A stretch of 64,000 nucleotides of DNA from Jiangella endophytica (GTDB lineage: Bacteria > Actinomycetota > Actinomycetes > Jiangellales > Jiangellaceae). The stretch spans positions 62,001-126,000 of the forward strand of contig NZ_QVAI01000005.1 of the NCBI RefSeq assembly GCF_003427025.1. The letters run 5' to 3'. Below the pieces are notes generated by a model. That model made no database searches, was not told where the DNA came from, and worked only from the letters and a program-made list of their open reading frames with translations. Below are positions 3,009 through 58,479 of the stretch, in pieces. Within the stretch, counting starts at the first letter, position 1. Every line of letters begins with the position of its first letter. The translations under genes and the position numbers were made by a program.

Positions 3009-4166
3009 ATGAACGACTACACCCCCACCCGTGAGGACAGGTTCTCCTTCGGCCTCTGGACGGTCGGCTGGGAGGGCGTGGACGTCTTCGGCGGCGCCGT
3101 CCGGCCGCGGCTCGACCCCGCGGTCGCCGTGCACAAGCTCGCCGAGCTGGGCGCCTACGGCATCACGTTCCACGACAACGACGTCATCCCGTTCGGCGCG
3201 TCGCCGTCCGAGCGCGACGCCGCGCTGAAGCCGTTCCGCGCGGCCCTCGACGAGACCGGCCTGCAGGTCCCGATGGTCACCACGAACCTGTTCTCGCACC
3301 CGGTCTTCCGCGACGGCGGGTTCACCAACAACGACCGCGACGTGCGCCGCTTCGCCATCCGCAAGGCCGCCGACCAGCTCGACCTCGGCGCCGAGCTGGG
3401 CGCCAAGGTGTTCGTCGCCTGGGGCGGCCGCGAAGGCGCGGAGTCGGGCGCGGCGAAGGACGTCAGGGCCGCGCTGGACCGCTACAAGGAGGCGTTCGAC
3501 CTCCTCGGCCAGTACATCCTCGACCGCGGCTACGACATGAAGGTGGCCATCGAGCCGAAGCCGAACGAGCCGCGCGGCGACATCCTGCTGCCGACCATCG
3601 GCCACGCCATCGCGTTCATCAACGAGCTCGAGCACCCCGAGCTGGTCGGCCTCAACCCCGAGGTGGGGCACGAGGAGATGGCGTCGATGAACTACGCGCA
3701 CGGCATCGCCCAGGCGCTCTGGCACGGCAAGCTCTTCCACATCGACCTCAACGGCCAGACCGGCCCGCGCTACGACCAGGACTTCCGGTTCGGCGCCGGC
3801 AACGCGCGCGGCGCCTTCTGGACCGTCGACGTCATCGAGTCCGGCGGCTACGACGGCCCGCGCCACTTCGACTTCAAGCCGCCGCGCACCGAGGACCTCG
3901 ACGGCGTCTGGGCGTCGGCCGCGGGCTGCATGCGCAACTACCTGATCCTGCTCGAGAAGACCGCCGCGTTCCGCGCCGACCCGGAGGTCCAGGAGGCACT
4001 GGCCGCGGCCCGGCTGGACCAGCTCGCCACGCCGACCGCGGCGCCCGGCGAGACCGTCGACTCCCTGCGGGCCGACGAGTTCGACCCCGAGGAGGCGGCG
4101 CAGCGCGGCATGGCGTTCGAGCGGCTCGACCAGCTGGCGCTGGACTATCTGTACGGCGTGCGCTGA
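3009..4166 (+). CDS. xylA: Xylose isomerase
   Basis: A 385-residue protein of the short actinobacterial xylose-isomerase class, cytoplasmic, converting D-xylose to D-xylulose. Metal and substrate residues are in place: the catalytic-site His in TFHDND, Glu and Lys in [11 protein letters not shown], Glu/His in [11 protein letters not shown], the DQD pair in PRYDQDF and Asp in FDFKPP. The ATG is chosen because GGAGG lies 8 bp upstream and the family N terminus ([15 protein letters not shown]) begins there; the longer upstream reading frame crosses the operator region. It is divergent from the oxidative-type dehydratase operon, so isomerase and dehydratase routes appear to share one regulator. 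No xylB kinase follows. Confidence 0.96.
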
Positions 4167-4176
4167 GATCGGTGGG

Positions 4177-5061
4177 GTGAGCTGGTTCCTGCTCGGCGCT
4201 CCGTGGGACTGTTCGGCGTCCCGCCGGGGTGAGGCCGCGGCGCCGGCCGCGCTGCGGGCGGCCGGGCTGGCGGAGCTGGTCGAGGCCGATCTGGGCGACG
4301 CCGGCACCGTCATCGAGGGCGCGACGCGCGACCCGGAGACCGGGGTGCTGGCGTTGCCCGCGACGGTGGCGGCGGCGCGCGCCCTGACGGCGTCCCTGGT
4401 CGCCGCGCTGCGGGACCGGCCAGGGTCACGGCCGCTGGTCGCGGGCGGCGACTGCAGCCTGCTGCTCGGCGTGGTCCCGGCGCTGCTGGCGGTCGCCGGC
4501 CCGGTGGGGCTGTGGTTCGCCGACGGCCACCCGGACTACCTCGACGGCGCGGCGTCCGACACCGGCGAGACCGCCGACATGGAACTCGCGATCCTCACCG
4601 GCGACGGCGCGCCGGCGCTGGTGTCGCTGGGCGGGACGGTCCCGATGGTCGAGCCCTCCGCCGTCGTTCTGCTCGGGCACCGGACCACCGGTCTGGACCC
4701 GGGCTCCGCGGCCGAGGTCGACCGGCTACCCGCGGCGCTGCACCGCATCGCCGCGCCGGAGCTGCTGGCCGATCCCGCGGCGGCCGGGCGCGGCGCACGC
4801 GACCTGCTCGACGACGCGGGCGGCACGGCCGGCGGCTGGCTGCACGTCGACCTCGACGTGCTCGATCCGTCGGCGCTGCCGGCGGTGTCGTACCCGCAGG
4901 CGGGCGGGCCGACGTGGGAGCAGCTGGCCGCGGCGCTGGCCCCGCTGGCGGCGTCGCCGCGGCTCCTCGGCGTCAGCGTCGCCGACTTCCGCGCCGATCT
5001 CGACCCGTCCGGTGAATACGCCGAACGCATCGTGGAGCTGCTGCGCGGGATCGTACGATGA
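4177..5061 (+). CDS. Arginase/agmatinase-family (ureohydrolase) protein
   Basis: A 294-residue ureohydrolase-fold protein starting with GTG 10 bp after xylA. The three metal motifs are recognisable: GGDCSLLLG (normally GGDHS), FADGHPDYLD (DxHxD kept) and HVDLDVLDPS. The first Mn2+-ligand histidine is a cysteine, so either metal binding is altered or this is a divergent branch. Substrate (arginine, agmatine, guanidino acid or formiminoglutamate) cannot be read. The close spacing to xylA suggests co-transcription, but no functional link to pentose use is evident. It ends just before the tRNA-like sequence. Confidence 0.8.
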   Translation: MSWFLLGAPWDCSASRRGEAAAPAALRAAGLAELVEADLGDAGTVIEGATRDPETGVLALPATVAAARALTASLVAALRDRPGSRPLVAGGDCSLLLGVVPALLAVAGPVGLWFADGHPDYLDGAASDTGETADMELAILTGDGAPALVSLGGTVPMVEPSAVVLLGHRTTGLDPGSAAEVDRLPAALHRIAAPELLADPAAAGRGARDLLDDAGGTAGGWLHVDLDVLDPSALPAVSYPQAGGPTWEQLAAALAPLAASPRLLGVSVADFRADLDPSGEYAERIVELLRGIVR

Positions 5062-5071
5062 GCGCGCGCCT

Positions 5072-5146
5072 CATGGCGTAGATCAGTGGCAGATCGCCCG
5101 GCTGCTTACCCGGAGGGCGCGGGTTCGATTCCTGCCTCCATGTCCA
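5072..5146 (+). tRNA. Atypical tRNA-like gene, anticodon position reads GCU, CCA encoded
   Basis: The sequence folds as a class-I cloverleaf. The acceptor stem is 5072-5078/5136-5142 (6 of 7 pairs, C-U mismatch) and is followed by U73 and encoded CCA (5144-5146). U8-A9 are present. The D-stem GATC/GATC has loop AGTGGCA with A14, G18, G19 and A21. The anticodon stem is CCCGG/CCCGG with one C-C mismatch and loop CTGCTTA. The variable loop has five bases, and the T-stem GCGGG/CCTGC has loop TTCGATT. The anticodon position reads GCU (Ser), yet there is no long serine variable arm, and base 37 is U rather than a purine. An 8-nt-loop fold with four perfect pairs is also possible. It may be a non-canonical or decayed tRNA; its charging identity cannot be stated. 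Confidence 0.55.
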
Positions 5147-5553
5147 CGTCAGCCGGACCGGACGGAGTCCTCGTGGCCGACGAGCACCAAGCCTCGCCCG
5201 GGTACGCCTTCGGTCAGCTGGAACGCGCCCTGCGCATGGCCGCCGAACACGACGACCCGGCGGCACGAGAGCGGGCCCGGGCCAAGGCGGCCCGCTGGCG
5301 CACCGTGCTCGACGGCATGGCCGACGGCCGGTTTGACGGTCAGGTCGCGCACACCGGTGGCCGGCTGCGGGAGCTGGCCGACGACGCCGCGCTGACCCGC
5401 TTCCGTCCGGCCGTCGACGGGTTCGCCCACGTGGCCGGCGGCGGCCGGATCGAGCCGGGCGGCACGGTCCGCGGCGGCACCGGGCGACGCCTGCTCGGCT
5501 GGGCCGCCGGCCCGCACTGGTACCTCACCGGTGCTCCGGCTCGCGAAGGCTGA
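5140..5553 (+). CDS. Hypothetical protein overlapping the tRNA-like 3' end; possibly frameshifted
   Basis: The ORF begins with an ATG inside the acceptor stem of the tRNA-like gene; no Shine-Dalgarno precedes it. A GTG at 5173, behind GGACGGAG, is a better-supported start. Residues from LVADEHQASPGY through ARAKAARWRTVLDGMADGR are rich in Ala/Arg/Glu and helical. From memory, this segment opens a longer conserved actinobacterial protein whose next residues resemble LTVGSRTPVA. Such a stretch (LTVRSRTPVAG) is present here in the other frame from about 5331, so a single-base shift may have broken the gene. The remaining C-terminal 65 residues are unrecognised. Confidence 0.4.
   Translation: MSTSAGPDGVLVADEHQASPGYAFGQLERALRMAAEHDDPAARERARAKAARWRTVLDGMADGRFDGQVAHTGGRLRELADDAALTRFRPAVDGFAHVAGGGRIEPGGTVRGGTGRRLLGWAAGPHWYLTGAPAREG

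Positions 5554-58404: not shown

Positions 58405-58479
<75 letters not shown>

Follow-up and report, generated by a model that had tools for sequence, protein, structure and literature searches.

A tRNA-like RNA of Jiangella endophytica is left over from a new type of RNA-protein pair, which many related actinobacteria still carry intact

The closest analogy to the pair of a tRNA-like RNA and a large protein described here is YrlA together with Rsr, an orthologue of Ro60. The published account describes a tRNA-like domain in YrlA, which is also suggested as a possible competitor for an anticodon nuclease, and reports for Deinococcus that Y RNA acts as the tether between Rsr and PNPase (PMC7790460). 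Both systems comprise a tRNA-like RNA encoded beside a dedicated RNA-binding protein, with binding being only putative in the present pair. However, the partner protein of the present RNA has no TROVE hit in Pfam, the RNA as found is a bare cloverleaf of approximately 72 nt on the 5' side of its gene, and the loci share no conserved family of neighbouring genes. Since no TROVE domain was found when 54 members of the protein family were compared with Pfam, we do not count the pair among the Y RNA/Ro60 systems. The thrS operator of E. coli is a tRNA-like translational operator, in which anticodon arms are imitated and the anticodon mimic is fixed. It resembles our element as a tRNA mimic in the leader of a linked mRNA, but the present element is a full cloverleaf with a free anticodon and the linked gene has no synthetase domain. 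Type III toxin-antitoxin systems, for example ToxIN, combine a small endoribonuclease as toxin with a pseudoknot repeat as antitoxin. The present RNA is likewise situated directly 5' of its gene, presumably on one transcript, and sometimes in tandem, whereas it is a cloverleaf, mostly single, and its protein is helical and approximately 750 aa long; a known type III toxin family was detected neither by PADLOC and NCBIfam in two full-length members nor by Pfam in 54 members. The Streptomyces "tRNA-like product" in a reference title of 1987 is reportedly bldA, an ordinary leucine tRNA. For Bacillus cereus, which belongs to a different phylum, a predicted pseudo-tRNA named tRNA-Other has been described as non-translational and as causing a phenotype when deleted, the abstract part of the report mentioning no coupling to a partner gene family (PMC3399842). 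A description of the tRNA-like RNA/protein pair was not found among the listed matches in the open-access literature; subscription papers and preprints were outside that scope, hence an earlier description is possible.

The window, i.e. the whole analysed stretch of 64,000 nucleotides from Jiangella endophytica, contains a tRNA-like RNA (cloverleaf body plus discriminator base) at 5072..5143 on the plus strand, which was called by ARAGORN and Rfam and reached 67.1 bits with the covariance model R1. ARAGORN extends it to 5146 on the same strand including an encoded CCA, and labels it tRNA-Ser(GCT). Written in segments, the letters 5072-5146 are CATGGCG TA GATC AGTGGCA GATC G CCCGG CTGCTTA CCCGG AGGGC GCGGG TTCGATT CCTGC CTCCATG T CCA, with stems of 7, 4, 5 and 5 bp. 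The anticodon-like loop CTGCTTA (5102..5108, plus strand, triplet GCT at 5104-5106) corresponds to the most variable region of the family. The cmscan match to RF00005 amounts to 50.0 bits (E 1e-7) compared to a gathering score of 29, and the element is therefore more than a chance resemblance; with this value the Infernal-type score check proposed in the initial annotation came out in favour of the element. At the gathering score the window has only one further tRNA, an ordinary tRNA-Pro(CGG) on the minus strand (58406-58479; 65.8 bits with Rfam, 57.8 bits with R1), and no other Rfam leader family. The full element is present once in the genome of the window, G000.

The features read from the letters in the initial annotation hold up by eye: the core invariants U8, A14, G18G19, A21, U33, C48, G53, TTC, A58 and C61 are all present, base 37 is U, and the CCA is encoded in this copy, although it is not constant across the family. 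The GCU triplet indeed occurs without the long arm expected of a serine tRNA, the variable loop being only 5 nt long, and two stems carry a single mismatch each (acceptor C6-U67, anticodon C29-C41), which leaves 6/7, 4/4, 4/5 and 5/5 pairs. Moreover, the minimum-free-energy structure of the window copy is not a cloverleaf (z +0.47). The two mismatches and the energy result would suit an ordinary tRNA pseudogene that is functionless everywhere; for the family this is extremely unlikely and refuted by the covariation and the strict gene linkage presented below, while for the window copy it comes close to the truth.

The upstream neighbour of the element is an arginase-family gene (4177-5061, plus strand), whose last codons contain a -10-like box TACGAT at 5054..5059 (plus strand), 12 nt before the element, at a position defined by the rule taken from 62 of 80 relatives. 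The promoter block GATCGTACGATGAGCGCG is kept in the genus genome G004; by eye, the sequence ahead of this block in G004 and G001 differs from that of the window. Downstream, a Shine-Dalgarno-like GGAG (5164..5167, plus strand, by eye), to which a similar block exists in the genus loci L041-L043, precedes a partner-gene remnant at 5173..5553 (plus strand), which comprises approximately 180 nt of the 5' end from a GTG start and approximately 200 nt of the 3' end. At the junction (5346..5365, plus strand) the left side matches G004, whereas the right side resumes approximately 1.9 kb further on in that genome. Identity to G004 amounts to 87% between the promoter block and about 5365, and to 78% after the jump of approximately 1.9 kb. 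Judged from this alignment, the partner gene of the window is a remnant left by an internal deletion of approximately 1.9 kb. The acceptor and anticodon-stem mismatches are not found in the five gene-linked copies of the genus, where these positions are paired; two of these five (G004 and G009) have a D-stem mismatch that is missing in the window. By the same kind of comparison the window RNA appears to be starting to decay. Hence, the initial suggestion of an early pseudogene fits this copy, which lost approximately 1.9 kb of the gene and acquired mismatches in the acceptor and anticodon stems, but it does not extend to the family with its covariation and gene linkage.

The genus set comprises 12 genomes including G000. 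Six of the other eleven (G001, G004, G005, G009, G010 and G011) match the element at E 2.6e-20 or better, carrying it whole or as a remnant, and in the first five it is directly followed by a large reading frame, which is full length with 726-768 aa in G004, G005, G009 and G010. In G001 (G001:C1:2249129-2251467, comprising L043, L055 and L075) the partner gene is split over two frames, while the tRNA-like RNA is fully paired; G001 is either a third genus genome with a damaged gene or the split is an assembly error. G011 retains only scraps of the partner gene and an element of 56.9 bits with R1. The other five genomes (G002, G003, G006, G007 and G008) gave no protein match and no R1 hit above 64.0 bits, and the top R1 hit of G003, the one checked among these five gene-less genomes, is a tRNA-Val. 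Altogether three relics are known in which the RNA is kept and the protein lost, namely G000, G011 and G310, the last of which falls outside the family of the window. In the relic of G310 (L199, G310:C13, about 3,907-4,087, minus strand) an RNA with small defects is followed by approximately the 27 first codons of the gene.

Beyond the genus, a profile search found the partner protein in 25 of 393 genomes of the class, which corresponds to a patchy distribution, and in 4 of 396 genomes drawn over the whole phylum, the window's own being one of the four. One scan of 84,980 species genomes revealed 326 related loci, and since the 80 named loci analysed here are the best 80 of these 326, distant members are under-sampled. 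The 80 loci stem from Nocardiopsis, Streptomonospora, Actinomadura, Thermomonospora, Actinoallomurus, Yinghuangia, Embleya, Streptomyces, Kitasatospora, Wenjunlia and Amorphoplanes. All 80 have a cloverleaf with 20 or 21 of 21 pairs upstream of the gene. In all 25 gene-bearing class genomes R1 detects an element at the gene, with 69.5-96.3 bits for the best hits, and the two highest-scoring R1 hits away from the gene among the matches listed are tRNA-Val with 66.7 and 65.4 bits. The identity as tRNA-Val was settled for four hits, i.e. these two plus the top-scoring ones in G003 and G011. The converse scan of the 393 class genomes at E <= 3e-13 gave 26 matching genomes, consisting of 23 gene-bearing ones, one relic (G310) and two with ordinary tRNA-Val; the elements of G005 and G010 just miss this cutoff. 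A complete gene without the RNA was not seen among the 80 loci and the 25 gene-bearing class genomes.

Some further copies deserve mention. G599, which belongs to another class of the phylum, carries the pair with two elements, the first of them nearly identical to the type of the window's genus. In G331 a truncated second partner gene exists (G331:C145:11780-12721, L076, profile positions 452-745) besides a complete copy on C811, and no R1 element was found at the truncated copy among the matches listed. The element also occurs at plasmid loci of Curtobacterium, where the protein of L159 is 36-43% identical to seven others. The pair is located on large plasmids in L159 and L160 (Curtobacterium, 546 and 567 kb) and L161 (Streptomyces), and may therefore move between replicons. 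No link to phages became apparent, as no match was obtained in 50,697 phage records or viral contigs.

The initial annotation had proposed to look for conservation and covariation in relatives, with random, uncompensated substitution speaking against a functional RNA. Our covariation set comprised 98 distinct elements (93 plus those of the window, L041 and L042, and two of L057), leaving out L043-L046, L194 and Curtobacterium. Standard pairing was found in 99.6% of the pair cells, a value that is inflated because the element finder demands pairing (at least 19 of the 21 pairs), although this bias should be small because all 80 loci yielded an element; spurious finder hits were dropped by requiring GCTC, ACTC or GCCC in the D-stem. 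Controls slid along the sequence were paired to only 33-46%. Changes on both sides occurred in 13 of the 21 pairs and in 164 cells compared to 38 in shuffles, and none of 500 shuffles reached any of five covariation measures. Thus, substitutions in the relatives are compensated in 13/21 pairs and the random pattern was not seen. Minimum-energy folding gave the exact cloverleaf for L095 from Thermomonospora echinospora, L120 from S. bicolor (Streptomyces) and L160, the cloverleaf with one extra anticodon-loop pair for L082 and L194, a partial one for L042 and none for L041. The folding z-scores of eight elements are modest, ranging from -1.93 to +0.47, so that the structure is supported by covariation and not by energy alone. 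The element of L095 was recognized by cmscan as RF00005 with 51.3 bits, and at E <= 1 this was the only match at the element, without a T-box or any other leader family.

We are nearly certain that window 5072-5143 is a decaying member of an actinobacterial family of tRNA-like RNAs. Their genes precede, on the 5' side, the genes of a single family of large helical proteins, and the cloverleaf is kept while the anticodon is free. The family element seems to serve this protein specifically, as RNA partner or as switch, and to be no tRNA for protein synthesis. The latter is especially evident from the anticodon loop. Among 102 seven-nt loops 25 different triplets occur. When 57 distinct elements with standard geometry were compared, variabilities of 1.40, 1.66, 1.67, 1.39 and 1.11 bits resulted for the five loop positions that follow the invariant C-U, the highest values elsewhere being those of one T-loop position (1.34 bits) and one D-loop position (1.29 bits). 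This variability is the reverse of what a decoding tRNA should display, since the anticodon is not conserved among orthologues, unlike that of a translational tRNA. Even within the genus the loops differ, with CTGCTTA besides the 6-nt versions CTGTTA and CTGGGA. The change in charging that had been considered for the window copy is not supported, because GCU is one of many triplets and varies already among the closest relatives. Pairing of the loop with nearby mRNA was rejected, too: neither the 20 nt upstream nor the 90 nt downstream showed excess complementarity, with 104/500 and 429/500 swapped controls as good.

The elbow of the molecule has also been altered in most members. The 103 copies counted in the 80 loci have a T-loop of the GGC type (101) or the UGC type (2) and in no case UUC, whereas the window and its clade have UUCGA. 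In GGC-type elements the G18-U55 contact became A18-G55 while G19-C56 was kept (D-loop reading by eye); the second element of L194 is exceptional with a short D-loop lacking GG. Proteins linked to UUC elbows form a single clade (100/100) apart from those linked to GGC elbows in the midpoint-rooted tree of 34 rows; the protein alignment (A4) contains 54 of the 80 locus proteins. That the elbow type tracks the protein clade would suit a protein recognizing the elbow, but one evolutionary switch is no proof of this; given one switch plus one UGC-type Actinomadura, shared descent explains the match without any contact.

These observations bear on the possibility that the element is a working tRNA after all, which would decode with altered charging or supply the neighbouring protein with an amino acid. 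The tertiary core, U33 and the encoded CCA of the window copy would agree with such a role. However, the anticodon is not conserved, the anticodon loops of G001, G005 and G010 have only 6 nt, the T-loop is non-standard in most members, the CCA is not constant (encoded in L041, L042, L043 and L046, absent in L044, L045, L057 and L194), and no acyltransferase domain was found in the partner protein, which makes a working tRNA very unlikely. Covariation, linkage and anticodon variability led us to reject, for the family, a translational tRNA as well as changed charging and a plain pseudogene. Of the explanations offered at the outset, a dedicated non-translational tRNA describes the family well, given the linkage to one gene, covarying stems, the variable anticodon and in most members the altered elbow, whereas the window copy itself is decaying.

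The partner protein has a length of about 690-800 aa, with 691 aa in the Curtobacterium members. For two full-length proteins Pfam gave no match below E 0.2, and NCBIfam and PADLOC gave none at E 1. An hmmscan of 54 members against Pfam gave 12 families at E <= 1 as scattered weak hits, among which TROVE, aminoacyl-tRNA synthetase, acyltransferase and toxin families are absent. A chemotaxis HAMP domain (E 2.6e-4, 2 members) and a CUB domain (E 0.0045, 3 members) were taken as chance matches. The protein profile found no PDB sequence at E 10. The AlphaFold2 model of the partner is of high confidence and almost wholly helical (pLDDT 89.0, pTM 0.83). Fold searches with the whole model and the C-terminal half yielded no convincing structural relative: the best Foldseek E-values were 0.26 and 1.3, respectively, and VIA gave Z up to 7.2 over 47-49 residues (rmsd 1.6-2.9) for the whole model and 4.5 over 80 residues (rmsd 3.4) for the C-terminal half. 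Many of the weak rows are helical repeat proteins; TROVE/Ro60 is not among the fold-search matches listed, which does not exclude it. Hence, within the Pfam, NCBIfam, PADLOC, PDB-sequence and fold searches made, no known RNA-binding family resembles the partner protein. Its pI has a median of 9.05 and ranges from 6.65 to 10.24 (54 sequences). With dN/dS values of 0.27-0.38 in four close pairs, it evolves under purifying selection, but fairly fast.

A sigma-70-type promoter (TTG-N3, 15-20 nt, TA-N3-T) is found within the 60 nt before the first element in 62 of the 80 loci, whereas random 60-mers from these loci contain it in only 6 of 4000 cases and shuffles in 92 of 8000. In 61 of the 62 loci the distance between the end of the -10 box and the element amounts to 8-13 nt, and the spacer measures 18 nt in 48, where among several fitting spacers the one nearest to 18 was taken. 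Considering this position and the usual distance from a -10 box to the transcription start, the element should be the first thing transcribed. The first in-frame start codon follows 2-4 nt past the acceptor stem in 77 of the 80 loci (exceptions are L081, L089 and L135), and a cut after the discriminator would therefore produce an mRNA with almost no leader. A longer distance of about 20-29 nt, including a Shine-Dalgarno-like run, separates the element from the start in L057, L194 and the genus of the window, and the annotated start in Curtobacterium is 13 nt downstream of the element. Because this distance varies, the constant feature is the RNA and not its spacing to the start codon.

We propose that the RNA is excised and used as the partner of the protein, the likeliest of the mechanisms considered, although this explanation, taken as a whole, falls somewhat short of an even chance. 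In intact relatives, the sigma-70-type promoter would give rise to one transcript starting few nt before the tRNA-like RNA, and the enzymes processing tRNA ends would cut out the tRNA-like part. The mRNA left behind would be nearly leaderless in the group of Streptomyces, Nocardiopsis and Actinomadura, or would have a short Shine-Dalgarno leader in the group of the window. The freed RNA would then be bound by the co-made protein as its dedicated ribonucleoprotein partner. In the species of the window, the protein was probably lost first and the RNA would now be unconstrained. Tentatively, the changing start distance speaks for an RNA product rather than for control of the ribosome site, and the linkage, the tandem copies, the promoter position and the basic median pI of the protein would agree with this proposal. 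The wide pI range, the lack of resemblance to RNA-binding families in the searches made and the truncated G331 gene copy, at which R1 lists no element, speak against it. On the other hand, the UUC motif of the T-loop is read by tRNA-end enzymes and by elongation factor, and excision may not happen given that this motif is absent in the 103 counted copies.

Alternatively, the cloverleaf stays in the mRNA as a cis-acting leader, which controls translation or stability and is bound by the encoded protein (autoregulation) or a tRNA-binding enzyme, comparable to the thrS operator of E. coli. Such a leader is unlikely on balance but has to be taken seriously: strict linkage would also be expected of an RNA regulating only in cis, wherever a promoter is recognizable (62/80) the mRNA would begin almost directly with the element, and the start codon is in most loci so close to the acceptor stem (77/80) that no room exists for a separate ribosome site. 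It is opposed by the starts located 20-29 nt (window's genus, L057, L194) or 13 nt (Curtobacterium) away, which show that the ribosome-site geometry is not conserved, by a partner protein without an aminoacyl-tRNA synthetase domain, and by tandem copies with different loops, which are unusual for a simple operator.

According to the finder, 61 of the 80 loci have one copy, 15 have two and 4 have three. In L081 and L089 the counted copy is situated approximately 190-210 nt upstream, and the finder missed a nearer copy with a short anticodon arm; together with the 19 loci from the finder, at least 21 of 80 are therefore tandem. Neighbouring copies are only 2-6 nt apart in 11 of the 19 tandem loci, which argues for co-transcription. 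The anticodon loops differ between tandem copies within a locus. For example, in six Streptomyces loci (L094, L106, L109, L131, L149 and L156) the upstream copy has G34 (GCA, GTA, GAA) and the gene-side copy C34.

Tandem RNAs directly 5' of a gene are also a property of type III-like systems, and by analogy the protein might be a toxin acting on tRNA or translation, which is neutralised by the co-transcribed tRNA-like RNA as antitoxin. The tandem arrangement in at least 19 of 80 loci, the lack of any complete gene without RNA in the 80 loci and 25 class genomes, the survival of the RNA over the protein in all three relics, the patchy occurrence (25/393) and the rather fast protein evolution would agree with such a function. 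Nevertheless, we regard it as rather improbable, because most loci have a single copy (61/80 by the finder, including two with a missed second copy) and no toxin domain was found. Furthermore, the gene is an approximately 30 times larger target that is expected to break first under any model, and the protein-first order of loss was for this reason set aside as evidence for an antitoxin.

Returning to the excised partner RNA, a more far-reaching version can be imagined, in which the pair represents an undescribed RNA-protein system of tRNA-shaped adaptors. Their U-turn loop would have been freed from decoding and diversified, and they would be used singly or in arrays, co-transcribed with a helical protein that reads the elbow. 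The loop might serve as specificity or bait element, for instance as decoy or sensor for enzymes cutting anticodon loops, with the protein as effector. We consider this version quite improbable as it stands.

If the main conclusion is true, loci called as tRNA genes by ARAGORN, whose labels for the family include tRNA-Ser, -Pro, -Arg, -Gln, -Asn, -Gly and -Pyl, in fact encode RNAs that belong, as partners or leaders, to a single protein family not yet characterised. Actinobacterial tRNA gene counts and claims about suppressor tRNAs should then leave out the family loci. Moreover, the family would represent a natural experiment on the tRNA fold without decoding, in which stems and elbow are selected while the anticodon is free.

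The genes around the pair are not conserved, the commonest next family being present in 14 of the 80 loci at mixed positions, and therefore RNA and protein form a free-standing module; the neighbouring frames were identified simply from the G+C content at third positions, and contig ends truncate several of the loci. A function within an operon or defence island was rejected, as no neighbour family is common to the loci (best 14/80). PADLOC matched 31 families in 70 neighbour proteins (the first half of a random 140 from 289 candidates); among the 25 listed, mads_2 occurs in two members and the others in one each, nearly all of the listed matches being models of type I restriction specificity. 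With Pfam, metabolic families of various kinds were obtained. Since no background set exists for these 70 proteins, nothing is concluded from the PADLOC and Pfam matches. An RlaP nucleotidyltransferase, assigned by Pfam to an RNA repair pathway, is encoded at L079:6251-7045 in N. flavescens (Nocardiopsis; E 9.2e-36; only the frame of L079 was scanned). Related frames exist in 6 of the 80 loci (L079, L081, L083, L086, L087 and L088), all of them from Nocardiopsidaceae, at a distance of one to eight called genes on the upstream side of the pair, a proximity that may be plain synteny.
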